From: Aquisphaera insulae
Lineage (GTDB): Bacteria > Planctomycetota > Planctomycetia > Isosphaerales > Isosphaeraceae
Length of the DNA: 64,000 bases
Assembly (NCBI RefSeq): GCF_011064615.1
Contig: NZ_JAALJH010000017.1
Location: 1 to 64,000 of the forward strand
Direction of reading: 5' to 3'
The translations under genes were made by a program, and so were the position numbers. Below are positions 2,991-20,433 of the stretch, piece after piece. The notes under the pieces were generated by a model. That model was given only the letters and a program-made list of their open reading frames with translations. It was not told where the DNA came from and ran no database searches. The stretch's first letter is position 1. Every line of letters begins with the position of its first letter.

Positions 2991-3245
2991 ATGGCAACCC
3001 GAGCCGACTTGCTGAAGCGAATCTCGATCGACCCGCGGGTCTGCTTCGGCAGGCCGTGCATCCGAGGGACGAGGATATGGGTCTCGCTGATCGTGGAGAA
3101 CCTGGCGGAGGGCGTTTCTCCGGAGGAATTGCAGGAGGCTTATCCCCACCTCGAGCCCGATGACATTCGGGCGGCGATGGCGTACGCGGCGGAGATGACG
3201 CGGGAAAGGATCATCCCCATCCCGGTCGGGGCCAGCGAGGGATGA
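2991..3245 (+). CDS. DUF433 family antitoxin
   Basis: 84-residue DUF433 protein, a small winged/HTH-like domain that acts as the antitoxin partner of PIN-like toxins. Family features seen: DPRVCFGRPCIRGTRIWV near the N-terminus, followed by SPEELQEAYPHLEPDDIRAA, the usual helix-turn-helix layout. Its stop overlaps the next start (ATGA at 3242-3245), so the two products are translationally coupled. The palindrome just upstream is a candidate operator. Predicted role: neutralise the DUF5615 product and repress the operon. Confidence 0.88.
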   Translation: MATRADLLKRISIDPRVCFGRPCIRGTRIWVSLIVENLAEGVSPEELQEAYPHLEPDDIRAAMAYAAEMTRERIIPIPVGASEG

Positions 3246-3607
3246 AGATCAAGCTCGACGAGAACTTCGACATCCGCATCGTTCCGTTGCTCATCGCGGA
3301 AGGGTTCGATGTGGACACGGTCCGCGACGAGGGCCTGGCCGGAAGCGACGACGAGACTGTGTACGAAACATGCCGCGCGGCCGGGCGAGTCCTGATGACA
3401 CTCGACCTGGATTTCGCCAACCCGCTACGGTTTCCGCCCGAGCATACCGAAGGTGTGATCGTCGTTCGTCCTCCTCGTCCTCTCCTCCCCGCGATCCGGG
3501 CGACGCTCCTGAGCGTACTGCCCCAACTCCGGACCCAACTCCTCAAGGGGGCACTCTGGATCGTCGAACCCGGACGGATTCGAATCCATGACCCCCATGC
3601 GGGGTGA
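3242..3607 (+). CDS. DUF5615 PIN-like toxin
   Basis: 121-residue protein beginning MKIKLDEN, the signature of DUF5615 (Mut7-C/PIN-like) proteins. Acidic residues in LDEN, SDDETVYE and TLDLDFAN are placed as in a PIN-type metal-binding pocket, so a ribonuclease toxin activity is expected from the family. It overlaps the DUF433 antitoxin gene by 4 bp. The C-terminus (KGALWIVEPGRIRI) is intact and no damage is visible. Activity is inferred from the family. Confidence 0.87.
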   Translation: MKIKLDENFDIRIVPLLIAEGFDVDTVRDEGLAGSDDETVYETCRAAGRVLMTLDLDFANPLRFPPEHTEGVIVVRPPRPLLPAIRATLLSVLPQLRTQLLKGALWIVEPGRIRIHDPHAG

Positions 3608-3674
3608 GCCCCTCGCTTCCTCCTCCCCCGATCGTGCCGGGCGAATCGGAGCAACCCCGCGGAGGACCACGGCC

Positions 3675-4172
3675 ATGATGCGGATTCTACTCACAGGGAT
3701 GTCCGGGACGGGCAAGTCGTCGCTGATCGTCGCCCTCCGCGGCCGCGGGTTCCGGGCGGTGGACATGGATGAGCCGGGGTGGTCGGAGTACGCGCCGGAC
3801 GGGGAATGGATCTGGCGCGAGGACCGGGTGAGGGCCTTGCTCGCCGAGGACGACGGCGACGCCAATGCCGACGCCGACGGCCGGGCCCTGTTCGTCTCCG
3901 GCTGCGCGATCAACCAGGGGAGCTTCTACCCGAGCTTCGACGAGATCGTCCTGCTGAGTGCCCCGGCGGCGGTGATCGTCGAACGCCTGGCCTCGCGGAC
4001 CAACAACCCATACGGCAAGGACCCTGCGGAGCTCGCCGCCACGCTTCACAACCTGGAGACCGTCGAGCCCCTCCTGCGCCGATCCGCGACCCGCGAGATC
4101 GATGCCTCCGCCCCCTTCGAGCAGGTGCTCCGGGCCGTCCTCGGGCTCGTCGCCGGGGAGCTACGTGGATAA
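3675..4172 (+). CDS. Small P-loop kinase-like NTPase (AAA_18/adenylate-kinase-like)
   Basis: 165-residue P-loop protein. Walker A is ILLTGMSGTGKSSL at residues 4-17. It is followed by RAVDMDEPGW, the substrate-side acidic strand typical of adenylate/shikimate-kinase-like folds, and by a Walker-B-like hydrophobic strand (EIVLLSAP). ERLASRTNNPYGK may form the Arg-rich lid. This architecture matches small nucleotide- or metabolite-kinase-like proteins of unknown substrate. ATG ATG at 3675/3678 gives two nearly equivalent starts; an upstream in-frame ATG at 3588 would overlap the toxin gene and adds low-complexity residues. It may be unrelated to the toxin-antitoxin pair. Confidence 0.75.
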   Translation: MMRILLTGMSGTGKSSLIVALRGRGFRAVDMDEPGWSEYAPDGEWIWREDRVRALLAEDDGDANADADGRALFVSGCAINQGSFYPSFDEIVLLSAPAAVIVERLASRTNNPYGKDPAELAATLHNLETVEPLLRRSATREIDASAPFEQVLRAVLGLVAGELRG

Positions 4173-4178
4173 GAGGGA

Positions 4179-4383
4179 TTTCTACCACGGATGACGCGGA
4201 TGGCACGGATGGAAGACAGGAAGGGTATGGGGAAGGGATAGGGGAAGGGGATAGGAGAAGGGGGGGGCAAGTCACAGGCCACGGCTCAGGGGCAGGCCAG
4301 GGCCACCAGGCCACAGGCCAGCCAACCCAGCCCCCGTGTTTCTTGCCTTCCATCCGTGCCATCCGCGTCATCCGTGGTAGAAA
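4179..4383. repeat. Perfect 37-bp inverted repeat around a purine-rich core
   Basis: Left arm 4179-4215 begins TTTCTACCACGGATGACGCG; right arm 4347-4383 is its exact reverse complement. The arms are built from a 9-nt near-repeat (ATCCGTGCC/ATCCGCGTC/ATCCGTGGT). The 131-bp core contains repeated AAGGGGATAGG-like purine blocks and CAGGCCAC-like direct repeats. A weaker single copy of the CCATCCGTGTCATCC motif lies at about 4875-4891. It starts 7 bp after the kinase stop codon. Confidence 0.85.
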
Positions 4384-5380
4384 CTCCGCCCAGGACATTT
4401 CCCTGGAAATTTCCTATCGTCGTGACAAAAAAAGCAGAACATAGCGCACTCTCTCTTATAGAGGCTTGTTGCTGCGCAACGGGTATGCCACAGGCCGCGA
4501 CGGGCCAAAGCACGGGCCGCGACGAGCCCAAAACTCGACGACGAAGCTGAGACTCTATACAACTTAAGTCGTGTTCTTGATTGCCTTTACGTATTCAATC
4601 AACCATCATCCATAAGACGAACGAAGCCAATTCCCGCCCGGCCGGGTGACGGTGGGCCGGCTCAAAAGGACGGCACGAGATCAGGGCTCCTTGGCAACTC
4701 GGCAGACGGTACTGAGGGACGGTCAGTGCCGGCCCGCGCGGCGGCGCGGGCCGGCGGGAACAACCAGGAATTGGCATGGCAAAGCCAATTCGCGATCGAC
4801 GCAAAGCCATAATTTTTAAGAACAAACGTCATTAGACGACAAGCCACGGCCGACGAACGAACCCAAATCGGCTCCCATCCGTGTCATCCCTTGGTCGTGG
4901 GTGTTTTCCGAGATTATGCCCGACCCCCGCGACCCGGAATTCCCGCTTGACCGGATTCCCCGACGCGGGGATACTCCGGCAACCCGGATGCTCTGCCTCG
5001 GGATGGATTCCCCGGGTTGAGCGGCACCCGCACGAGTCAAGGAAGACGAGACCCACCGTGCTCTGCTGCATCCTGTTCATCCGAGATACATCCGCGAGCC
5101 GCCCCCACGCTCTCCGCGAGCGTCTCTTCTCGGGGCGGGCCCGAAGGCATGGGGCGGGCACCCGCCCCGACGGCGATCCTCCTCCCTCGCCCTCGCCTGT
5201 CATCACCGGCGAAGAGATCGACACCGACTCCGACCCGGCCGCGATCCTCGGGGTCGCCGCGCCCGCGGCGGCCGCGCCGGCGATGACGCGGAACCAGTTC
5301 CAACCGGGGCTCGTTCGCCTGATCGGCGAGATTCTCCGCAACGCGACGACGCACCGAGGACCACGGGAGGGATCCGCACG
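4384..5380. other. Non-coding stretch with hairpins upstream of the polysaccharide locus
   Basis: No convincing gene. Visible structures are an 11-bp GC stem with a four-base loop at 4729-4754 (CCGGCCCGCGC paired with GCGCGGGCCGG), a 7-bp stem at 4769-4790 (AATTGGC/GCCAATT), and a degenerate copy of the CATCCGTGTCATCC motif near 4880. The region probably carries the promoter of the polysaccharide operon. A GGGAGG ribosome-binding site lies about 9 bp before the ATG at 5381. Confidence 0.5.
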
Positions 5381-7156
5381 ATGGTGATCACCAACGGATA
5401 CCTGACGATCTTCGCCCTGGCCATGATGGGCTGCGTGCTCGCCACGCCGCTGGTCACCTACATCGCCGCCTGGGTGGGGGCGATCGACCGGCCGGACCAG
5501 TTCCGGCGGATCCACACCGGGGCCATCCCCCGGCTCGGCGGCCTCGGCCTGGCGATGGGGATCGCCGCCGGGATGTTCCTGCCGCACCTGTCCGGGTCGT
5601 CGCGGTTCGTCAGCCTGCTGCTGCCGGACCTGCATCACGAGTGGGTCATCCTGGCCGCCTCGCTCCTGATCCTGGCCGTCGGCTTCGTGGACGACACCCG
5701 GTCGCTGGGCCCGCGGGTGAAGCTGCTGGGGCAGGCCCTGGCGGTCCTGATCCTCTTCCTGGGCGGCATCCGCATCCAGTCGTTCGAGATCCTCGGCCTC
5801 AACGTCGACCTCGGGTTCCCGACCGTGGACCTATCCTCCTGGGGCCTGCCGCTGGCGATCCCGCTGCCGAGCCTGGCCCTCACCATGCTCTGGTTCCTCG
5901 GCTGCATGAACGTCTGGAACCTGATCGACGGCATGGACGGCCTGGCCTCGGGGGTGGGCCTGCTCGTGAGCGGGACGCTCACCCTGGTCGCCATCCACAA
6001 CGAGAACACCGAGGTGGCCATCCTGGCGGTGGCCCTGGCGGGGAGCCTGGCCGGGTTCCTCCTCTACAACTGGCATCCGGCCTGCATCTTCCTGGGCGAC
6101 AGCGGGGCGCTCCTGATCGGCCTGCTGATCGGGGTGGTCGGGGTGCAGGGCTCGATGAAGGGGCCGTCGGCGATCTCGATCCTGTTCCCGATCCTGGCGA
6201 TGGGGCTGCCGATCTCGGACACGGCGATGGCGATCTTCCGCCGCTGGGTGCGGAACCTGCCGCTCTCCGCGGCCGACCGGCGGCACGTCCACCACCTGCT
6301 GATCGGCCTGGGGCTGAACCCCCGCCAGGCGGCGGTGCTGCTCTACTGCTTCTCCGGCTTCATGTGCGGCGCCGTGCTGCTGGGCTCGGCGCTGCGGAGC
6401 GAGTTCCTCGCGCTGGTGCTGGGCTCGTGCGGCTGCCTGGCGTTCCTGCTGGTGGTGACCAGCCGGCGGGATGAGCTGGCGATGCTCCGCGAGGACCTGC
6501 AGGAGCGGATGGTCCGCGGCCGGCAGGAGCGGCAGGCGGCCAAGCTGACGTGGGAGGCCATCCAGCGGATCGAGCTCTGCAAGACGGCGGACGCCGCTGT
6601 CGAGGTCGTCCGGCGGGTCGCCGCGCGGCTCGGCTGCGGCCGGATCGAGATCGCGTCCCAGGCCCAGGCCCCCGGGGAGGGGGGCCGGCCCCCGGCCCAC
6701 GCCGCCCCCCCGGCCGTGTCGGGACCCTCGGCCAGCTTTCGAATTCCGGGTGGCGAGGGGACGTGGATCACGGTCGATCTGGAGATCGGCCGGGGCCCGA
6801 ATCGTCGGCCCGATCCGGGCCCGACGGCCATGGCGACGGCGACGGCGGGAGCCGAGCCCGAGGCCCCCCTCGACCTGGCGGCGGACATCGTCTTCCGCAG
6901 CCTCCAGCGGCTGGGGCAGGCCCTGGCCGGGCGGATCGAGGAGATCCGGACGGACGCGGCGGAGGCGATCGCGGCGGAGGGCTCGCGGGAGCCGGCCGCG
7001 GGGATCGCCCTGGCGCCGGGACGCCGGGCGGTGGGCCTGGTCGTGCGGCACCTGAAGGCGCGACTGCCCGGCCACCTGGCCGGCAAGCCGGCCGCGCCGC
7101 GGTTCCCCGTGGCGGACGCCGCCGCGGTCGCCCCCACGGGCCTCGCCCGCCGCTGA
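5381..7156 (+). CDS. WecA/MraY-type polyprenyl-phosphate glycosyl-1-phosphate transferase with long C-terminal extension
   Basis: 591 residues. The first ~350 residues form a multi-pass GT4-type membrane enzyme that transfers a sugar-1-phosphate from a UDP-sugar to a polyprenyl phosphate, the initiating step of polysaccharide repeat-unit synthesis. Motifs in order: FVDDTRSLG (Asp104-Asp105), NVWNLIDGMDGLASG (about 178-191), FLGDSGALLIG (about 238-247), and the cytoplasmic His loop DRRHVHHLL. Beyond the family's usual end, about 225 residues form a charged helical/coiled segment (DELAMLREDLQERM) and a soluble Ala/Pro-rich domain starting TADAAVEVVRRVAARLG, whose function I do not recognise. 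First gene of the co-oriented exopolysaccharide locus. Confidence 0.9.
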   Translation: MVITNGYLTIFALAMMGCVLATPLVTYIAAWVGAIDRPDQFRRIHTGAIPRLGGLGLAMGIAAGMFLPHLSGSSRFVSLLLPDLHHEWVILAASLLILAVGFVDDTRSLGPRVKLLGQALAVLILFLGGIRIQSFEILGLNVDLGFPTVDLSSWGLPLAIPLPSLALTMLWFLGCMNVWNLIDGMDGLASGVGLLVSGTLTLVAIHNENTEVAILAVALAGSLAGFLLYNWHPACIFLGDSGALLIGLLIGVVGVQGSMKGPSAISILFPILAMGLPISDTAMAIFRRWVRNLPLSAADRRHVHHLLIGLGLNPRQAAVLLYCFSGFMCGAVLLGSALRSEFLALVLGSCGCLAFLLVVTSRRDELAMLREDLQERMVRGRQERQAAKLTWEAIQRIELCKTADAAVEVVRRVAARLGCGRIEIASQAQAPGEGGRPPAHAAPPAVSGPSASFRIPGGEGTWITVDLEIGRGPNRRPDPGPTAMATATAGAEPEAPLDLAADIVFRSLQRLGQALAGRIEEIRTDAAEAIAAEGSREPAAGIALAPGRRAVGLVVRHLKARLPGHLAGKPAAPRFPVADAAAVAPTGLARR

Positions 7157-7194
7157 GAAATCGCACACGGACGACCTGCACGGGAGGATGGACC

Positions 7195-9501
7195 ATGGAT
7201 GGGATCATGCCGCTGCGAGGAAGCTCCTCCTCGACCTCATTCGCCCCTTCATCTTCGCCCGGCCACGGCCCCGGCGCGGAGCTCGCCGCGGGCCGGCAGG
7301 GGGCGACGGCGGTGACCTTCGGCCACCCGGCGCACGCGGCCCCCGCCTTCAATCCGGCCGCCGCCAAGGGGCCGGCGGACTACCTGCGGGCGGTCAAGCG
7401 GCGGATCTGGCTGGTGCTGGTCGTCGCCGTGCCGATGGCGGCCCTCACCTCGGCCTGGGCGCTCCGCCAGCCCAAGATCTACCGGGCGGTCGCCGAGATC
7501 ACCATCGATCCCCCCCAGATCAATCCGATGCTCTCCACCCTGGTCTCCCGCGACCTCGGCCAGCAGGACGGCGCCAGCCAGGAGCGGTACGCCCCCAACC
7601 GCGTCGCCCATCTCCAGAGCCTGGAGCTGGCGGAACAGGCCGTGACCGCCGCGCTCAGCGCCAAGGAGCTGGCGGGGTTCGACGACGCGGCCCAGGAGCT
7701 CTTCGGCGCCAACCTCGTCGTCAAGCCCGTGGGCAAGACGAATCGGTACATCGTGACGCTGGAGGGCCGGGATCCGGCGCGGACCAGCAAGCTGCTCTTC
7801 GCCCTCGTCGAGGCGTTCAGGAATGCGGCCCGCAAGGAGCGGCAAGACCGCGTCGGCGAGGCGGCCACGTTCGCCGAGGACCAGCTCAGCCAGCTCAAGC
7901 GAGAGCTGACCAAGCTGGACGACACGATCATCGAACGGCTCCGCGAGTCGCGGATCATCGGCCCCAGCGGCCGGAACATCTTCGAGGAGCAATACATCAA
8001 CATCAGCTCGCGGCTGGCGAACGAGGAGGCGCGGGTGGGCGAGCTCCAGCAGCAGTTCATGATCGCCCGCTCCTTCCCCCGGCAGGAGGATAAGTCGCCG
8101 GCCGCCCAGGCCCGCGACCATGAGATCGCCCAGCTCATGGCCGAGAAGAAGAAGCTGGTCCGCACGCTCGAGAACGCCCGGCGGATCGAGACCCACAAGC
8201 AGTTCAACAGCGACCCCTTCGTGAAGAACTGCGCCCGGCTGCTCAAGGAGGTCATGGACGAGATCGAGGACCTCCAGCAGCCGATCCGCAAGACCGAGAT
8301 GGCCGGCGACCCCACGCGGGTGCTCCTGGACCACTTCCGCGGCCAGGTTGAGGACGACCGGGCCAGCCAGCAGGAGGCCCTGGCGAGGATGCAGGACTCG
8401 CTGCCGGAGCACCAGAAGTTCCAGTCGATGCAGAAGCGGCGCGACGAGCTGAACGCCAAGGTGACGGAGATGGAGGGGAACCTGCTCTCGTTCGCGATCC
8501 TGACCCGCTCGCAGAACGCCCCGGTGACGATCCCCGCGAGCGTGGCCGAGCCGACGATCCCCGTGAAGCCCAGCCGCGGGCTCCTGATCGGCATGGGGAT
8601 GGCCTTCAGCCTGGTGCTGGGCATGGGCCTGGTGGTGCTGCTGGAGCACGTGGACCACTGCGTGAAGGTGCCGGAGCACGTCACCCAGGGGCTGACCCTG
8701 CCGCTGCTGGGCGTGGTGCCGCGGATCCGCCGGAGCGCGCTGACGCATCGGGGCGGCCACCTCTGGACGTCGAGCACGCCCAACTCGCTGGAGGCCGACG
8801 CCTTCCGCAACGTCCGGGCCAGCCTGCTGGGGGCGGCGGACCGCCACGGCAACATCGTCACCCTGCTGGTGACCAGCCCCAAGGCGGGCGACGGCAAGTC
8901 CACCGCGGCGCTCAACCTGGCGGCCACCTGCGCCCGGGCGGGGGAGCGGACCCTGCTGCTGGACGTGGACCTGCGCCGGCCCACGCTCGAGGACGTCTTC
9001 CCGCCGGAGCCCGGCAAGGAGGGGACGCACCTCGGCCTGGTGGACGTGCTCCAGGGGACGCTCCCCTGGCAGAAGACGCTCCGCCACACCGAGCTCCCCA
9101 ACCTGGACTTCATCCCCACCGGCGACCCGACGGGGATCCCGATCGAGATCCTCGGCACGCTCGAGCTGCGGCAGCTCCTGGCGGCGCTCTCGCGGCACTA
9201 CGACCGCGTGATCCTGGACGGCCCGGCCGTGCTGGGCATGGCCGACTGCCGGATGCTGGGCCGGATGGTGGACGCCTCCATCCTGGTCGTCCGCGCGGGG
9301 GCCCACCCGCTGGTGACCCTGCAACGCACCAAGACCATGCTCGAGCTCTCCCACGTGGCGATCGCCGGCGTGGTCGTCAACGGCCTCAGCGAGGGCGTCG
9401 AGCACTGGTCCAGCTACGGCTACGACGACGCCGGCTTCGCCCCCGCCCGCGCCGAGCGGGAGCGGGGGCCCGCCCGGGCCCTGGCCGCCTCGGCCTCCTG
9501 A
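7195..9501 (+). CDS. Wzz-type chain-length regulator fused to BY-kinase
   Basis: 768 residues combining a polysaccharide co-polymerase and a bacterial tyrosine-kinase-like ATPase. A low-complexity N-tail is followed by TM1 near residues 70-90 (IWLVLVVAVPMAALTSAW), a long periplasmic coiled-coil region (GNVR type) and TM2 near 462-482. The cytoplasmic P-loop domain has Walker A TSPKAGDGKST (about 560), Walker A' LLLDVDLRRP, and Walker B VILDGPAVL. A short tail, SSYGYDD, offers only two tyrosines, so the usual Tyr-rich autophosphorylation cluster is reduced. It should set chain length and couple phosphorylation to export. Start ATG at 7195 lies 38 bp after the previous stop. Confidence 0.92.
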   Translation: MDGIMPLRGSSSSTSFAPSSSPGHGPGAELAAGRQGATAVTFGHPAHAAPAFNPAAAKGPADYLRAVKRRIWLVLVVAVPMAALTSAWALRQPKIYRAVAEITIDPPQINPMLSTLVSRDLGQQDGASQERYAPNRVAHLQSLELAEQAVTAALSAKELAGFDDAAQELFGANLVVKPVGKTNRYIVTLEGRDPARTSKLLFALVEAFRNAARKERQDRVGEAATFAEDQLSQLKRELTKLDDTIIERLRESRIIGPSGRNIFEEQYINISSRLANEEARVGELQQQFMIARSFPRQEDKSPAAQARDHEIAQLMAEKKKLVRTLENARRIETHKQFNSDPFVKNCARLLKEVMDEIEDLQQPIRKTEMAGDPTRVLLDHFRGQVEDDRASQQEALARMQDSLPEHQKFQSMQKRRDELNAKVTEMEGNLLSFAILTRSQNAPVTIPASVAEPTIPVKPSRGLLIGMGMAFSLVLGMGLVVLLEHVDHCVKVPEHVTQGLTLPLLGVVPRIRRSALTHRGGHLWTSSTPNSLEADAFRNVRASLLGAADRHGNIVTLLVTSPKAGDGKSTAALNLAATCARAGERTLLLDVDLRRPTLEDVFPPEPGKEGTHLGLVDVLQGTLPWQKTLRHTELPNLDFIPTGDPTGIPIEILGTLELRQLLAALSRHYDRVILDGPAVLGMADCRMLGRMVDASILVVRAGAHPLVTLQRTKTMLELSHVAIAGVVVNGLSEGVEHWSSYGYDDAGFAPARAERERGPARALAASAS

Positions 9502-9576: not shown

Positions 9577-11205
9577 GTGAACCCGCGAGCGAAGATCCTG
9601 GCCCTGGGCGACAGGGCGGCCTGCGGGCTGATCGCCGTGCTGGTGCTGGGGAGCATCGCGGCCTTCGGCGGGGCGGTCTGGTGGTTCCGGCCGTTCCTGG
9701 CGGTCGCGGCGCTGCTGCTGGTGCTGGTGGAGGTGGCGCGGCTGGCGGCGGCGGGGCGGTTCCCGCTGCTCAAGAGCCCGCTCACGGCGCTGGGGCTGCT
9801 GGCCCTGGGGCTGGCGGCGTTCCAGCTCGTGCCGCTGCCCGGGGCGGTGGCGCGGCGGATCTCGCCGGCGGCCCACGAGGCCTACGGCCGGGGCGTGCTG
9901 CCGGACCTGGTCCGGGCCGACGACCCCGAGGCCGCGCTGCCGGAGGCCCCGCGGATCCGGACGCCCGCCAGCCTGGACCGCGCGGCCACGCTCCGCTGGC
10001 TGGTGGGGGCGGCGGCCTGCCTGGGGATCTTCTGGTCGGTGTCGCACTATGCGGACCGGCTGGGCCGGCTCTACCTGGTGTGGGGGCTGGTGGTCGGCGG
10101 GTTCCTGCTCAACGCCACGATCGCGGCCGTCCAGGTCTCCAACCGAGGCGACGGGCTCTACGGCCTCTTCCTGCCGGGGGGCGGGCCCCCGTGGGCGCCG
10201 ACGCTCGACGACCTGTTCGAATCGCCCACGACCACGGAGCTCTGGGAGCTCCCCCGCGCGACGGTCGCGGCGACGGCCCCGGATGCCGGGCCGGGCGAGG
10301 GTACGTCCGCGGGCACGGCCGCGACCGCGACCCGCGCCGGGGCGGGGGCGTTCCTGGCGCCGGCCACCCCGCCGCTCTTCGGGACGATGATGGCGAGCCC
10401 GGGGGCCTTCCTGGCGATGGGGACGCTGGCCATGCCGCTGGCCCTGGCGATCGTCGTGCACCTGCTCACGCCGCTGGGCGGGCGGGACAGCCTGGCGGAT
10501 CGCCTGATGAGCTCGGGGCAGGGGAGCCTGGTGCTGCTCCTGGTCCTGCTGATGCTGCCGGCGGCCTTCGTGGTGGGGCTGATCGCGGGCCCCTGGTACA
10601 GCCTGCCGGCGGCCCTCGGCCTGGTGGTCGCGGGGCTCCCGGCCGCGGCGAGGCCGGGCTGCCGCGGGGCGGCCGGGGCCTTGCTCCTCTCGCTCCTGGT
10701 CTGCCTGGGGATGGGGGGCACCTTGCAGGCGCGGTGGGAGCCGCTGATGGGGGGCCCGCCCCCGGTCCCCGCGCCCGATCCGAGGCTGGCGCGGGCGCTC
10801 TGGTCGGACGGCCTGGAGGTCGCCCGGCTCTTCCCGACCGTGGGGGCGGGGCTCGGCACCTTCGCCACGCTCCAGCCCTACTTCAAGGACGGCGGCCCGT
10901 CGTCCACCACCGCCATGAGCACCCTGGTCCAGTGGTCCGCGGAGGCCGGGATGGCCGGCGTGGCGCTGCTGGCCGCCGCGGCCCTCTGGTCCGCCTGGCG
11001 GATCCCCGGCGGGCTGAAGCGGGTGGGCCGGGGCGACCGATCGCTGGCACATGGCTTGATCGGGGCGGCCCTGAGCTTTACTCTATTAGCCGCCGTCCAC
11101 TGGACGGTCGAGCTCTCCGCCGTCGCCATCTCCGCCAGCGCCCTGGGTGGGACCTGGAATCGCTGGCTGGCCGGCGGCACCGACCTGTTCGTGGACCGAG
11201 GATGA
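9577..11205 (+). CDS. O-antigen ligase/polymerase-like multi-pass membrane protein
   Basis: 542 residues with a GTG start and about ten or more hydrophobic segments, for example LIAVLVLGSIAAFGGAVWW, FLAVAALLLVLVEVARL and GMAGVALLAAAALWSAW. A large soluble loop sits in the middle (about residues 190-260). The layout and the C-terminal segment ending VGAGLGTFATLQPYFKD match O-antigen ligase (Wzy_C/WaaL) family proteins, which join or polymerise lipid-linked glycans at the periplasmic face. The locus also contains a second polymerase-like gene (19039-20433), so one of the two may be ligase-like. Assignment is by topology and context. Confidence 0.72.
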   Translation: MNPRAKILALGDRAACGLIAVLVLGSIAAFGGAVWWFRPFLAVAALLLVLVEVARLAAAGRFPLLKSPLTALGLLALGLAAFQLVPLPGAVARRISPAAHEAYGRGVLPDLVRADDPEAALPEAPRIRTPASLDRAATLRWLVGAAACLGIFWSVSHYADRLGRLYLVWGLVVGGFLLNATIAAVQVSNRGDGLYGLFLPGGGPPWAPTLDDLFESPTTTELWELPRATVAATAPDAGPGEGTSAGTAATATRAGAGAFLAPATPPLFGTMMASPGAFLAMGTLAMPLALAIVVHLLTPLGGRDSLADRLMSSGQGSLVLLLVLLMLPAAFVVGLIAGPWYSLPAALGLVVAGLPAAARPGCRGAAGALLLSLLVCLGMGGTLQARWEPLMGGPPPVPAPDPRLARALWSDGLEVARLFPTVGAGLGTFATLQPYFKDGGPSSTTAMSTLVQWSAEAGMAGVALLAAAALWSAWRIPGGLKRVGRGDRSLAHGLIGAALSFTLLAAVHWTVELSAVAISASALGGTWNRWLAGGTDLFVDRG

Positions 11206-11288: not shown

Positions 11289-14200
11289 ATGCCCGAATCC
11301 GCTTGTCTCCACATCCAGGATCGAGAATCGGGCCCGATTCGCGTCATGGATCTCCCCTGGATCGCGGTCCGGATCGGCCGGTCGGCCGCCTGCGAGGTCC
11401 GCCTCCACGACCCGGAGGTCCCCGGCGAGGCCTGCCGCCTGCAGCGTCGGGGGCGCACCTGGCGGCTGATCCCGCTGGGCCGGAAGGGCTCGGTCTTCCT
11501 CCAGGGTGAGCCAGTCCACGAGGCCTGCCTGCTGCCGTTCGACGTCCCCTTCCGCGTCGGCTCGACGTGCTTCACCCTCCGCCCGGACCGCGCCGCCGAG
11601 CCGAACTGGGGGATGTACCACGCCCCGGCGCCCGCGAGGACGACGCCCGCCGCGGCGACCACGCCGGAGCCGCAGCAGCCGCCACCGCCACCGGCGGCCA
11701 CGCCCGAGCCCCCTCGGGTCGCGACCACGAGCCCATCCGCGGACCCGAGCGCCAACGTCGCCCCGGCGGTCAATCCCTGGGAGGCTCGCTGGAGGGCCGC
11801 CGGGGCCCGGCTCCTCGCCCAGGGAGCGGGGCGGCGCACCCCGCCGCCATCGCATACCCATCCGTCCCCGCCGCGAACCGGGCGCGTGCCGACCGCCCCG
11901 ACGCCCACGCCGCGGGCCGCCGAGCCGCCGAGCCGGCCGGACCTCCGCGCCGGATTCACGACGCATCCCCTGGGCACGCCCACGGCACGCGGCTACCCGA
12001 CGGCCCCGGCCGTCCCCCCCCGCGGCGACGAGTTCGACCACCGCCCACGCCGCGCCGAGTTCCGGCAGGTCCCCCCGACCCCGACGCGACGGGCCCCCGC
12101 CGAGCCCGCGGGAGCACCACGGCCGGAGCCGGAACCCGCACCCCCGATCGAGGCCGTGCCCGTCGTCGAGGCCGTGCCCCCGATCGAGGCCATGCCCGTC
12201 GTCGAGGCCGTGCCCCCGATCGAGGCTGACCCCATCATCGAGGCCGTGCCCGTCGTCGAGGCCGGACCGCTGGTGGTCGCGGAGTTCGAGGAAGTCGCGG
12301 ACGTCATCGCCCGGTTCGCGACCGAGACGTCCGACGGTGCCCGCGCCGCCGTCGAGCAAGCCCTGCCGACCGACCCGGACGCGGAGGAGGACGACGGGGA
12401 TCTCTGGCTCCTCGACGAAGCCGCCTCCGCCTACGACGGCACGTTCGCCGTGGGGGATCTCCGGCCGGCCGTCGATCCGAACCGGGAGGGCGAGGCTGCC
12501 GCCGAGCCGGCCCAGGGCGACGACGCGCCCGAATCCTCGTCCCCATGCGAGCCGATCCTCTCGGCCCTTGCCCCCCCCGTCATCCCCCTGACCGACGAGG
12601 CCGGCCCGGCTCGGCAGGAGCCTCGCCCTCCCGATGATGACGAGGAGAAATCGCCGGGCCTCGGCCTGCTGCAGGGCGAGGCATTGCTCACGGCCGAGGC
12701 GATCGCCCCCTTTCCCCAGCCGTCCCCCGCGGAGGGGGGAGATGGTGCCGCTGCGGACGAGGTCGCATCAACCCCTGAGGTCGTCCCCATCGATCCGGAC
12801 GAGCCCCCCGCGCCCGAGATCGCGGACGACGCCCAGGCCGAGTTCGTCGATCTTACAGCCGCGCTTTCCGCCTTCGACCACGCCTGGTCGCCCTACTGGA
12901 TCATGGGGCAGGCCGCCGAGTTCACCACCCAGACATCCTGGCCGGAGCCCATCGCCGAGGCGGGCCACGGCCCGGTCGTGATCTCCCCCTCGGTCGCGCC
13001 CCCGATCGCCGAGGCCGAGGCGGTGACCTCGACCGGAGTCCGCACGGCGACCCTGCTGGAGCCGCCGCGACGGCCCCGCCGGGCGACCCGCCCTCATCCT
13101 CAACATCGCGACCGAGAGCCGCGGAGGTTCGCCCGACCGGATCCGGAGCCGACGCGGAGCCCCGCCCTGGACGGGGGACCCGATCGCGAGCCGGAACGCA
13201 TTCACGAGGCGGCAAGTGATCATCAGCCGGCCGGGTTCGCGGAGCCGAGCCCGGCCCAGGAGCTGGACCTCCCCTCCGCGAAGGACATCCTCGCCTCGGC
13301 CCCGAGGCGGCCGGCGGCGAGGGCGACGGCGGCGGCGAATGCGACGGAGCCGCCGGTCCGGCTGGCGCGGCCGCCCCAGCGAGAGCACGTCGCGCCGACG
13401 GTCTCTCGAGAGCCGGCGGCGTGGTCGCTGCCGGCGTGGCTGGCCGGGCCGCCGATCGTGCTCCTGGCGCTTACCTTGGGCATCCCCGGCGCCTTCCTCG
13501 CCGCGCGGTGGGCCGGCGATTCCAACAACGCCGCGATCATCGGCCAGCGGCTCCTGGCGGCGCGGACCGGCCGGGCCCGGGAGCGGCCGCTGCCGGAGAC
13601 GGTGACGCCGTCCCCGGCCTCGTGGTGGCAGACCACGCCGCTCCACCTGGCGGAGTGGGGCGTCTACCGGAGCCGCCCCGGCGCGACCGAGGACGAGCGC
13701 GAGGAGGCCGGCGAGCTCCTCGATCGGGCCGTCCAGCTCTCGCCCCTCCACCCGGTCGCCCGGCTGGCGCGGGCCGAGGTCCGCCCGGCGTCGAGCTCGA
13801 CCGCCGCGGGCCTCCGCTCGGTCCGCAACCTGGGCCTCAGCCGCGACCCCGCCAGCCTCTCGTGGAGCGCCCGCAACCTCCGCCTGGCGGGCAAGAAGCC
13901 GGCCGCGGTCCGCCTCTATCGCCGGGCCTTCCTCCTGGCCGACGGCCAGGAGCCCTCCGGCCGGGCCGAGCCGGCCTTCAACGCGGAGCCGAGCGGCCAT
14001 CGCTACTACCTCCCCGGCGAGATCGCCGCGACGGCCATCGTCCGGGACCTCCTCGCCGACGCCGACTGGCCCTGCCGCGAGTGGATCGAGGCCATCCCCC
14101 CCGCCGGCGTCGCGGCCCTGGCCGCCGCCCGACTCCTCCACGATCAGGGCAAGCCGGAGGCCCGCGAGATCCTCGACCGGATCCTCGCGGCCCAGCCCGC

Positions 14201-14606
14201 CGAGCCGGTCGCCTCCCGCGATCGCGACCGCGACCGCGACGACGAGCCGACGCCGGATGGCGAGGCCGAGGATCGCGACGGCGACCGCGACCAGGGGGGC
14301 TACCCCGCGGCGATTCGCCTGGCCGTGGCCGCGGAGGCCCACGCCCTGCTGGAGCACTGGGGCGAGGCCGAGGCGCGATACCGCCGGGCGATCGACCTGG
14401 CGGAGGACGTCACGACCCGCCGGGCCTGGTGGTTCAACCTCGCGAGCCTGGCGTCCCGGGGCAACGACGAGCCCCAGCGCAAGGCCGCCCTCGAGGCCGC
14501 CCTCGAGGTCTCGTCGGCCGACGACATCGGCCGGCGGGCCGTGGAGATGCAGCGGGCCTCCGAGCCGATGGCCCGGTCCCGCCTGGGCATCGCCCGGGGC
14601 AACTGA
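11289..14606 (+). CDS. FHA-like / transmembrane / TPR protein of the polysaccharide locus
   Basis: 1105 residues in three parts. An N-terminal FHA-like domain (about 15-100) contains VRIGRSAACEVRLHDPEV and later VGSTCFTL, the usual phosphothreonine-binding fold pattern. A ~600-residue Pro/Ala/Glu-rich linker holds hexapeptide repeats (VVEAVP/PIEAVP) encoded at 12144-12263. A single membrane span (PPIVLLALTLGIPGAFLAA, near residue 720) leads to a C-terminal helical region with TPR-like pairs (ARLARAEV, AEARYRRAIDLAED). The FHA end is therefore predicted cytoplasmic and the TPR end outside. ATG at 11289 follows GGAGGAG; an in-frame ATG at 11202 overlaps the previous gene. A regulatory or scaffolding role in export is inferred. 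Confidence 0.75.
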   Translation: MPESACLHIQDRESGPIRVMDLPWIAVRIGRSAACEVRLHDPEVPGEACRLQRRGRTWRLIPLGRKGSVFLQGEPVHEACLLPFDVPFRVGSTCFTLRPDRAAEPNWGMYHAPAPARTTPAAATTPEPQQPPPPPAATPEPPRVATTSPSADPSANVAPAVNPWEARWRAAGARLLAQGAGRRTPPPSHTHPSPPRTGRVPTAPTPTPRAAEPPSRPDLRAGFTTHPLGTPTARGYPTAPAVPPRGDEFDHRPRRAEFRQVPPTPTRRAPAEPAGAPRPEPEPAPPIEAVPVVEAVPPIEAMPVVEAVPPIEADPIIEAVPVVEAGPLVVAEFEEVADVIARFATETSDGARAAVEQALPTDPDAEEDDGDLWLLDEAASAYDGTFAVGDLRPAVDPNREGEAAAEPAQGDDAPESSSPCEPILSALAPPVIPLTDEAGPARQEPRPPDDDEEKSPGLGLLQGEALLTAEAIAPFPQPSPAEGGDGAAADEVASTPEVVPIDPDEPPAPEIADDAQAEFVDLTAALSAFDHAWSPYWIMGQAAEFTTQTSWPEPIAEAGHGPVVISPSVAPPIAEAEAVTSTGVRTATLLEPPRRPRRATRPHPQHRDREPRRFARPDPEPTRSPALDGGPDREPERIHEAASDHQPAGFAEPSPAQELDLPSAKDILASAPRRPAARATAAANATEPPVRLARPPQREHVAPTVSREPAAWSLPAWLAGPPIVLLALTLGIPGAFLAARWAGDSNNAAIIGQRLLAARTGRARERPLPETVTPSPASWWQTTPLHLAEWGVYRSRPGATEDEREEAGELLDRAVQLSPLHPVARLARAEVRPASSSTAAGLRSVRNLGLSRDPASLSWSARNLRLAGKKPAAVRLYRRAFLLADGQEPSGRAEPAFNAEPSGHRYYLPGEIAATAIVRDLLADADWPCREWIEAIPPAGVAALAAARLLHDQGKPEAREILDRILAAQPAEPVASRDRDRDRDDEPTPDGEAEDRDGDRDQGGYPAAIRLAVAAEAHALLEHWGEAEARYRRAIDLAEDVTTRRAWWFNLASLASRGNDEPQRKAALEAALEVSSADDIGRRAVEMQRASEPMARSRLGIARGN
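12144..12263 (+). repeat. Coding 18/36-bp tandem repeat in the FHA-TPR gene
   Basis: Alternating CCGATCGAGGCCGTGCCC and GTCGTCGAGGCCGTGCCC units encode (P/V)(I/V)EA(V/M/D)P hexapeptides, six to seven copies. Near-identical DNA units suggest recent slippage and likely strain-to-strain length variation of the linker. Confidence 0.85.
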
Positions 14607-14730: not shown

Positions 14731-15780
14731 ATGACCTCGAACCAGGTCGTCGACGGTGCAAGATCGTCCGCCGCCTCGCCGGCCCGCCGGCCCGGGCCGC
14801 CGCTGCTGGACCACCTCAGCGAGGCGTGGGACGACCCGGCCCGGCGGCCGACGGTCCTGGCCGGGGCCGCCTGCCTGGGGCTGCTCACGCTCTTCTTCCG
14901 CGACACGCTCTGGGACTTCTATTACTCCTGGTCCAAGGACGAGAACTACAGCCACGGCTTCCTCGTGCCGTTCCTGAGCCTCTACTTCGCCAACCAGGTC
15001 GCCGCCAAGGGGCCGGTCCCGCTCCGCGGCGGCGCGGCCCTGGGCGGCACGATGCTCGGCCTGGGCATCCTCACGCGGCTGGTCGCCATCCCGCTCCCCA
15101 TCCCCTTCCTGGGCGAGCTCGCCTTCCTCGCCTCGCTCGCGGGCCTCTTCGCCGTGCTCGCCGGATCGGCCGCGCTGCGGCGATACTGGTTCCCGTTCTT
15201 CTTCCTGCTCTTCATGGTGCCCCTGCCGATCGCCCTCTACACGCGGATCGCCTCGCCGCTCCAGCTCATGGCCAGCCAGATGGCCTCCGCCGTGATGAAC
15301 TTCACCGGGCTCCCCGTCCTCTGCGAGGGGAACCACATGACCCTCCCCGGCGGCGTCCAGATGTTCGTGGCCGAGGCGTGCAGCGGCATGCGGCAGATGA
15401 CCGGCTTCCTGGCGCTGGCGACCGCCGTCGCCTACCTGACGACCCGCCCCGGCTGGTATCGGGCCGTCGTCGTCCTGGCCGCGCTCCCGATCGCGCTGAC
15501 CGCCAACGTGGCCCGGATCGTCCTCACCGGCTACGTCATGCACCACGTCAACCCGCAGTACGCCTCCGGCGCGTATCACACGCTGGAGGGCATCCTCATG
15601 ATGGGCTTCGGCCTGCTGATGCTGAACTCGCTCTGCACCCTGATGAACCAGCTCACGCCGCCGCCGGCCGAAGCCGAGGGCGGGCCGGCGGGCGGGACGG
15701 CCGCGGCATTCCCGGCCCGCGCAATGTTAAATATGAACATGAACCTGGTTTCGCTCCCCTCGCCGAAGGAGGCATCATGA
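14731..15780 (+). CDS. Exosortase (EpsH/XrtA-like)
   Basis: 349-residue membrane transpeptidase-like enzyme. The exosortase catalytic triad is visible: Cys217 in VAEACSGMRQMTG, Arg262 in LTANVARIVLTG and His283 in AYHTLEG, all within membrane-spanning segments. At least eight hydrophobic helices are present. Exosortases cleave C-terminal sorting signals (PEP-CTERM-like) and attach proteins to surface material, and often sit in exopolysaccharide loci, as here. ATG at 14731 is preceded by GAAGGA; an in-frame ATG at 14647 would add 28 polar residues. The stop overlaps the next start (ATGA). No protein with a recognisable sorting tail is encoded in this window. Confidence 0.93.
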   Translation: MTSNQVVDGARSSAASPARRPGPPLLDHLSEAWDDPARRPTVLAGAACLGLLTLFFRDTLWDFYYSWSKDENYSHGFLVPFLSLYFANQVAAKGPVPLRGGAALGGTMLGLGILTRLVAIPLPIPFLGELAFLASLAGLFAVLAGSAALRRYWFPFFFLLFMVPLPIALYTRIASPLQLMASQMASAVMNFTGLPVLCEGNHMTLPGGVQMFVAEACSGMRQMTGFLALATAVAYLTTRPGWYRAVVVLAALPIALTANVARIVLTGYVMHHVNPQYASGAYHTLEGILMMGFGLLMLNSLCTLMNQLTPPPAEAEGGPAGGTAAAFPARAMLNMNMNLVSLPSPKEAS

Positions 15781-16451
15781 CACGCGTCCACCGCGGCATC
15801 CTCGGTGCGGCCCTGCTGCTGTCGGGGCTGGCGGCCCAGGCCGGCCTCGAGGGGATCAACCGGACGGAGCGGCCCGACCTCCGCGGGCACCTGTCGGGCC
15901 TCCCGCTGGAGCTGGGGGACTGGGTCGGCCGCGACGAGGCGGTCCCCGCCGACATCGTCGAGCGGGCCCAGACGACCGAGTACCTCAACCGCGTCTACGA
16001 GAGCCGCACCCGGCCCGGCATGCGGCTGACGCTCTGGATCAACTTCTCGATCAAGGGCACGAACCTTCGCCACACCCCGGAGATCTGCCTCCCGTCCGGC
16101 GGCTGGACGAAGATCGAGTCCCAGACGAGGGTCTTCGAGGTCCCCACGCCGGGGGGCAAGGAGCTGAGGCTCACCCGCCTGGGCTACAGCCAGGGTGAAC
16201 TGGTGAAGCAGGTGGGATTCTGGTATTACATCTTCGGCGAGGGCAAGCTGGAAAACTACGTCCGCCAACTGCCGATCACCAGCCGGAGCAGCCACGGCCA
16301 GACCACCCAGGGATCCTCGATGACCGTCGAGATCTTCCACGCCGGCGATCAGGACGGCGACGGCGAGGCCCTCAAGGGATTCGCCGGGGCCCTCATCGCG
16401 GCGCTCGAGCCCGTGCTGCCGGAGCCTCGCGCGGAATACTACATCCCCTGA
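15777..16451 (+). CDS. epsI: EpsI-family exosortase-associated protein
   Basis: 224 residues, translationally coupled to exosortase by a 4-bp overlap. It has an N-terminal hydrophobic segment (GILGAALLLSGLAAQAG) acting as a signal or anchor, followed by the EpsI/DUF3485 domain. The hallmark motif RHTPEICLPSGGW spans residues 98-110, and GFWYYIFG appears further on. EpsI proteins accompany or are fused to exosortases in polysaccharide loci; their biochemical role is unsettled. The tail does not carry a sorting signal. The spacing to gmd is 16 bp, so the operon continues. Confidence 0.92.
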   Translation: MTRVHRGILGAALLLSGLAAQAGLEGINRTERPDLRGHLSGLPLELGDWVGRDEAVPADIVERAQTTEYLNRVYESRTRPGMRLTLWINFSIKGTNLRHTPEICLPSGGWTKIESQTRVFEVPTPGGKELRLTRLGYSQGELVKQVGFWYYIFGEGKLENYVRQLPITSRSSHGQTTQGSSMTVEIFHAGDQDGDGEALKGFAGALIAALEPVLPEPRAEYYIP

Positions 16452-19038: not shown

Positions 19039-20433
19039 ATGGACGAGCTGATTCCCATTTATGCGATTGCCGGCCTCGTGGCGGCATATTTCCTGCTGCG
19101 GGTCGCGAGGCGGACGTTCGACCCGTTCGAGCCGGTTTGGCTGTTCCTCGTCGGCTACATGCAGGTCTACGTCGTGCAGGCGATCTCGTACCACGACTGG
19201 GCGGTGGTCTCGCGAGGCACGGAGCTTGTGACCTCCGCCAACATGCAGGCACTCTGGGCCATGCTCTGGTTCCTGGGCGTGTATCACGTCTGCGGGGCGC
19301 GGAAGGTGGCCGCGGTGCTGCGGACCCCGCCGCAGACGTGGTCGACCGGAACCGTCCTTGCTCTCACTCCACCGATGGCCATTTGGGGGCTCTATTGCAC
19401 AGGAGTCCTCAGCCGCAACGGACTCCAGGGCGCCGACGAGTTGAGCCCCGAGGAGCTCCTCTTCCGCTCGTTCGGGTTCCTGCTCATGGTGGCCGCCCTC
19501 ATGCTCATCGTCACCGGCCGCTCGGGTGAGAAGCCCCGGCCGGCGTACCTAGCCGCCGGATTGTTCACCTCGGCGCTGTACACGGCGGTCTGGATGTTCA
19601 ACGGCAAGCGATCCCCGGGGATCGTCGGCGTCCTCTCCACGGTCTGCGCCTTCTACGTCTCCAGGGGGAAGCGGCCCTCCTGGGGGGTTCTCTTCGGAAC
19701 GGGCGTGGCCGCGGTGCTGGTGGTGACCCTGGCCATCGGCTGGCGGCAGAACCGGAAGTACGAAAGTTCCGTCGGCGGCTTCCTCCAGTTCGCCACCGAA
19801 CTCGACCTGTCGATGATCATGGAGAACCTGAATATCGGGGAGGGCGACGACCCGCTGGAATACGTCACCCAGGAGAGCACCGAATACGGCGGCTTCATCC
19901 TGATGAAGAGCACGGTCCCGGAGAAGTCGGGTTACGATTTCGGCGCCAATTACCTGCGGACCTTCTCCACGTTCATCCCGCGGATAGTCTGGGCCGACAA
20001 GCCGCTCTTCGGTCGCGACGCCTGGCGGGCAGCCTGGGTGGCCGGCTCGGAGATCACGCGTGAGGAGGAATTCACCAGCCCGGCGATCGGCATCCTGGGC
20101 GCGACGCAGCTCAACGGCGGGGTTGTCGGCACCCTCATCGTCCTGGCCGTGCTGGCGATCCTCCAGCGCACTGCGTACGAGTACTTCCGTCGCCACGAGG
20201 CGATCCCCTGGGCGCAGTTCTGGTGGGCGAGTACCTATTACGTTGCCTGGTTCATGGTGGTCAACGACGACCCCATGGTCTGGTTCTACTACAGTTGGGG
20301 CTTCACCACGATGCCCGTCGTCATCCTGCTATGGCTGGTGAACCGGATCGCGGGATCGCAGGCTCGGGCTCCCGCGACGTCGGCGATTCCCGTTCCGGCG
20401 ATGGGGTTCGACCTCGGAGGTTACGCGCGATGA
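19039..20433 (+). CDS. Wzy-like oligosaccharide repeat-unit polymerase
   Basis: 464 residues with about ten membrane segments, beginning IPIYAIAGLVAAYFLLRVAR. The large periplasmic loop contains GANYLRTFSTFIPRIVWADKPLFGRDAW, which resembles the FIPR-x-x-W-x-x-KP region of O-antigen polymerases of the oligosaccharide repeat-unit type. C-terminal helices follow (VVGTLIVLAVLAILQ, VVILLWLVNRIAG). It lies 9 bp after one glycosyltransferase gene and overlaps the next by 4 bp. Expected role: polymerise flipped repeat units at the outer face of the inner membrane. Wzy proteins are poorly conserved, so confidence rests on topology, the loop motif and context. Confidence 0.75.
   Translation: MDELIPIYAIAGLVAAYFLLRVARRTFDPFEPVWLFLVGYMQVYVVQAISYHDWAVVSRGTELVTSANMQALWAMLWFLGVYHVCGARKVAAVLRTPPQTWSTGTVLALTPPMAIWGLYCTGVLSRNGLQGADELSPEELLFRSFGFLLMVAALMLIVTGRSGEKPRPAYLAAGLFTSALYTAVWMFNGKRSPGIVGVLSTVCAFYVSRGKRPSWGVLFGTGVAAVLVVTLAIGWRQNRKYESSVGGFLQFATELDLSMIMENLNIGEGDDPLEYVTQESTEYGGFILMKSTVPEKSGYDFGANYLRTFSTFIPRIVWADKPLFGRDAWRAAWVAGSEITREEEFTSPAIGILGATQLNGGVVGTLIVLAVLAILQRTAYEYFRRHEAIPWAQFWWASTYYVAWFMVVNDDPMVWFYYSWGFTTMPVVILLWLVNRIAGSQARAPATSAIPVPAMGFDLGGYAR

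Follow-up and report, generated by a model that had tools for sequence, protein, structure and literature searches.

The gene at positions 11289–14606 of the window (the whole 64,000-nucleotide stretch of Aquisphaera insulae DNA analyzed here) is a real gene encoding a membrane protein with an FHA-fold domain, a linker, one hydrophobic span and a TPR-like C-terminus, and for this FHA-TPR protein a role as structural coupler within the surface-polysaccharide machinery is more likely than one as a switch under kinase control. In the explanation that we favor, whose chances we regard as about evenly balanced, it would be a lineage-specific bitopic scaffold, SctD-like and independent of phosphothreonine (pThr), that links polysaccharide/Wzc components of the cytoplasm to ligase and exosortase steps on the envelope side.

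The gene is an uninterrupted open reading frame of 1105 aa on the forward strand, as are its parts and its operon neighbors between 7288 and 16451, with coding-type GC3 over almost its whole length and an ATG shortly 3' of the sequence GGAGGAG; both the start codon and the Shine-Dalgarno sequence are kept in most relatives. Its N-terminal part carries an FHA-fold domain (residues 20–100; 11346–11588), with residues 20–99 giving their best Pfam match to PF16697 (Yop-YscD_cpl; 1.2e-8, above the Pfam cut-off) and a further match to PF00498 (FHA; 1.2e-5, 26.0 bits against a cut-off of 20.7). Among 27 FHA parts from the family, PF16697 was matched by all 27 and PF00498 by 23 (E ≤ 0.01), and a PDB profile search with the family FHA part returned the FHA domains of Ki-67, FhaA, EmbR and GarA. 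The sole NCBIfam match of the window protein was to FhaB, at 25.5 bits against a cut-off of 125. Because the AlphaFold model of the FHA part, built from a two-sequence alignment, was poor (pLDDT 46), the assignment of the fold is based on sequence.

The FHA domain is followed by a Pro/Ala-rich, probably disordered linker of about 610 residues (residues 111–716; 11619–13436; 37% Pro+Ala) that varies strongly in sequence and length between orthologs. The initial annotation spoke of a long variable repeat linker because of a 36-bp tandem repeat (12141–12264, detected with TRF) coding for PPIEAVPVVEAV-type units; length and variability hold, but the repeat is confined to the copy in this genome, being absent from the congener L003 in the alignment, and is not a family-wide feature. 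A linker motif, NPWEARWRAAGARL (residues 162–175; 11772–11813), found by pair alignment and a regular-expression scan, is kept in closer relatives only. A second motif, LPSAKDIL (residues 661–668; 13269–13292), belongs to a family consensus [WL]PS[AV]xx[IV][LFM] located 44–74 residues N-terminal of the span. Its strict form was present in 24 of 30 linkers against 0.012 expected from shuffled linkers, the pattern having been derived from part of the same sequences on which it was tested, and a relaxed form was found in 30/30 family proteins.

A hydropathy scan of the 1105 residues gave one strong hydrophobic stretch, a predicted transmembrane span at residues 717–741 (13437–13511), with a KD value of 1.89 against 1.38 for the runner-up window, which lies within the linker; the single membrane span proposed earlier is therefore upheld. 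The C-terminal domain (residues 779–1105; 13623–14603) is TPR-like and helical. TPR matches of the window protein alone were sub-threshold in Pfam (0.019–0.023), and TPR_2 was matched by 22 of 28 family members (best 5.5e-8); a PDB profile search with the family C-terminal region returned TPR proteins. The AlphaFold model of this part, made from two sequences, was all-helical with local pLDDT near 90 and an overall value of 62, and its top Foldseek matches were TPR structures with low TM-scores. Many family members (e.g. L003, L034, L036 and L054) end in [KR]AN. As to the description of this region as external, the TPR assignment is clear in the family, and we infer from the one span and a modest family-level positive-inside bias (N-inside in 20 vs 6 of 28 members, over 40 residues; absent around the span of the window protein itself) that the domain probably lies on the envelope side with the N-terminus inside.

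The gene lies in a polysaccharide operon whose order (wecA-like, Wzc, ligase-like, FHA-TPR gene, exosortase, EpsI, then GMD in nearly all) was conserved wherever contigs extend among the loci examined in the host family, and it adjoins the orthologous exosortase in every family locus whose contig reaches that far. In the window, the neighbors comprise a Wzz/Wzc-type chain-length protein with a tyrosine autokinase domain (7288–9501, start approximate; TIGR01007, 6.2e-35), a polytopic membrane protein (9577–11205) that is orthologous in all family loci reaching there, an exosortase (14731–15780; PF09721, 1.3e-63, and NCBIfam exosortase models) and an EpsI-like exosortase-associated protein (15705–16451, coordinates of the reading frame, with the true start further in; PF11984 DUF3485, 2.1e-28; TIGR02914, 5e-9). 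Of the two flanking genes between which the initial annotation placed the FHA-TPR gene, the exosortase is confirmed by its domain match; the O-antigen ligase-like protein at 9577–11205 had no Pfam or NCBIfam match and is called ligase/Wzy-like by position and look only. Further along, at 19039–20433, lies another polytopic protein; it weakly matches an XrtY-associated Wzy-like family (9.4e-5, far below cut-off) and is kept in most family operons. Upstream of the polysaccharide operon are a DUF5615 protein (3242–3607) and a small AAA-type ATPase (3588–4172).

The pThr pocket of FHA domains is formed by five residues, a Gly and Arg, a Ser and His, and an Asn, of which Arg, Ser and Asn contact the phosphopeptide (PMC4037201). 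When the 27 FHA parts of the family were aligned with positive controls, namely 24 further FHA domains from the same genome, the family kept Gly in 27/27 and Arg in 24/27, and Ser, His and Asn in 1/27 each; the corresponding values in the controls were 24/24 for Gly, 20/24 for Arg, 21/24 for Ser, 23/24 for His and 14/24 for Asn. Ser and Asn are phosphate-contacting residues and His is structural. In the family, SRxH is mostly replaced by [AP][ED]xx and NGT mostly by GxV-like letters, so that the canonical Gly-Arg/Ser/His/Asn pThr-binding set is not retained by the FHA parts of these 27 members. The Arg that follows Gly may still allow some anion or phosphate contact in the 24 members that keep it, and is itself gone in the congener L003 and in L044 and L051. 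By the counts given above, the [WL]PS[AV]xx[IV][LFM] motif is more constant in the family than the pocket. The core of the domain (RIGR...CEVRL), the RRRG hairpin and a Trp are conserved. With the fold retained and the pocket lost, retention of the domain therefore probably serves a purpose other than pThr reading; the initial description of an FHA-like phosphothreonine reader stands for the fold, matched by PF16697 and PF00498, and is not supported for the reader, since 26 of 27 members lack Ser, 26 lack His and 26 lack Asn.

Relatives were first searched for with a 199-aa C-terminal piece as query, which gave a match in 40 of 45 host-family genomes covering 20 of 21 genera (one genome having a second, marginal match); G033, negative in this search, carries the full protein including the FHA part. 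In a class-wide sample, a profile of the C-terminal half (A2) was found in 36/36 host-family genomes, and its only matches beyond the family were three weak TPR-type ones among 162 genomes, so that the absence from all related exosortase loci that the initial annotation named as refuting its reading is clearly not what the survey found. In two near relatives (L037 and L038), the FHA part and the span-TPR part lie in different frames; programmed frameshifting was considered and rejected, since the shifts differ in direction and fall in a GC-rich linker; sequencing error or decay is likelier, and split genes are a further possibility.

The FHA module is detachable in evolution, as genus g14 has the span-TPR part alone and the loci of family f4 hold, at the corresponding place, a span-TPR protein that lacks FHA. 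Specifically, no credible FHA profile match was found in any frame of the locus in the two g14 representatives (L052 and L103), whose homologs retain the motif, the span and the TPR region. In the two f4 loci (L082 and L083), the slot between the ligase-like gene and the exosortase is occupied by a protein of 548–629 residues with a different N-terminus without FHA, a PS[AV]AxLL stretch, one span and TPRs, and both proteins also terminate in RAN, which fits the [KR]AN pattern. The exosortase orthologs of the host family form a supported group to which the f4 exosortases are close. Profile comparison of the f4 slot protein with A2 gave an E-value of 5.9e-11; its homology to the FHA-TPR family is probable, not proven, because the A2 search of the class-wide sample missed the f4 proteins and TPR similarity could partly explain this value. 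As a counterpoint to the scaffold reading, the f4 profile similarity may reflect TPR repeats generally and not common descent. In 17 further loci, at exosortases of other clades, a hydropathy survey for a bitopic TPR protein gave only Wzc-like and unrelated proteins.

These FHA-less versions, together with conservation of the TPR region in all members, are what one would expect if the TPR domain were the working part, that is, if the protein were an inner-membrane-anchored equivalent of PrsT or AlgK-like polysaccharide-export TPR proteins, assisting the passage of polymer or exosortase substrates to the outer membrane, and the FHA domain were a dispensable addition. We consider this main rival rather unlikely: nearly every genus of the family keeps the FHA part, and the surface of this part outside the pocket (CEVRL, RRRG and Trp) is conserved, for which reasons it is not neutral, and no lipobox or outer-membrane link was seen in the protein.

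Control by a Ser/Thr kinase, as suggested in the initial annotation, would require the FHA domain to read a phosphothreonine set by one of the many kinases of the genome and to pass this signal to the envelope. The FHA fold recognized by sequence, the Arg kept in most members and the 148 kinase-domain matches in the host genome fit such a signal, but it is improbable given the loss of Ser, His and Asn in a family whose same-genome controls largely keep them, the loss of the Arg itself in three members and the lack of the FHA part in genus g14 and at the f4 loci, and the claim is not sustained. It is correct that no Ser/Thr kinase is encoded in the window, the sole match on the contig being at 89.6 kb; with 148 matches genome-wide and none in the window, the lack of a nearby kinase carries no weight either way. 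Least likely of all is a GarA/OdhI-like intramolecular switch in which the FHA domain would bind its own phosphorylated linker and regulate access to the linker motifs: the domain does carry a long linker and resembles GarA and FhaA in profile searches, but the pThr contacts are lost, the linker varies greatly, and the pair alignment showed no Thr motif conserved within it.

The scaffold reading draws on the SctD proteins of type III secretion (YscD, PrgH and MxiG), with which the FHA-TPR protein shares an N-terminal FHA fold with a non-conserved pThr pocket, a flexible linker, one span and an envelope-side protein–protein domain. In PrgH, FHA pocket mutants are functional and deletion of the domain blocks assembly (PMC3635987), and the state of the family FHA domain, with the pocket lost and the fold kept, resembles that of PrgH/YscD as described there. 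The protein differs from SctD in having TPRs in place of the ring-building periplasmic domains, its C-terminal region matching TPR only, in a linker of about 600 residues compared with a few tens, and in its neighbors, which are polysaccharide and exosortase genes with no type III secretion genes nearby. The FhaB/FipA, GarA and EmbR-type proteins, which share the FHA fold as indicated by the PDB profile matches, have an intact Arg/Ser/Asn pocket and recognize pThr peptides, whereas the present family lacks this set. PrsT is a TPR protein of the PEP-CTERM system associated with exosortase/EPS loci (PMC1569441), a setting shared by the window protein; PrsT is, however, a lipoprotein with PrsK/PrsR partners, whereas the window protein is span-anchored and has an FHA domain, and it gave no match to the PrsT model TIGR02917 in the NCBIfam scan. 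On the features tested, the protein is therefore an FHA-fold protein, yet not SctD, PrsT or a canonical pThr reader. No paper linking FHA proteins with exosortase loci was found among the open-access papers searched.

According to the scaffold model, the FHA-fold domain, lying in the cytoplasm, would together with the [WL]PSxxxIL motif dock cytoplasmic or inner-membrane partners independently of phosphorylation, natural candidates being Wzc, the WecA-like transferase or the glycosyltransferases. The long flexible linker would let the docked partners reach the membrane site, and the span and TPR domain would organize the ligase/exosortase side of the envelope, in a mode of action like that of the cytoplasmic FHA domains of SctD (PrgH/MxiG/YscD). 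More tentatively, and with the balance of probability somewhat against it, the protein could be an undescribed assembly factor obligate for one planctomycete exosortase/Wzc clade, in which a detachable, phosphothreonine-blind FHA domain and a near-universal [WL]PSxxxIL docking motif sit on a span-TPR core, so that the injectisome principle of the FHA domain as a scaffold would be reused in polysaccharide and protein-sorting export.

To our knowledge, few accessory proteins are known for exosortase systems besides EpsI and the Prs regulators, and the FHA-TPR protein, kept throughout the family and adjoining the exosortase wherever contigs reach it, is a candidate for the component, so far missing, that would connect polymer synthesis with protein sorting. 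In this family an FHA domain persists in most genera although its pThr pocket is gone. Such a clear-cut example allows the idea of FHA folds as scaffolds to be tested beyond type III secretion, and cautions that an FHA domain alone is no proof of Ser/Thr-kinase control. The host genome contains about 50 PEP-CTERM-type matches over cut-off, listed at 53 places and none of them in the window, and these proteins are likely substrates of its exosortases. Elsewhere in the host genome, contig C265 (locus L098) carries a tandem-FHA reading frame (4232–5794, reverse strand) divergent from a second exosortase paralog (6848–7756, forward strand), which is followed by a Wzc-like gene; this reading frame was rejected as a member of the family, as it lies on the opposite strand from the paralog and its FHA domains retain SRxH.
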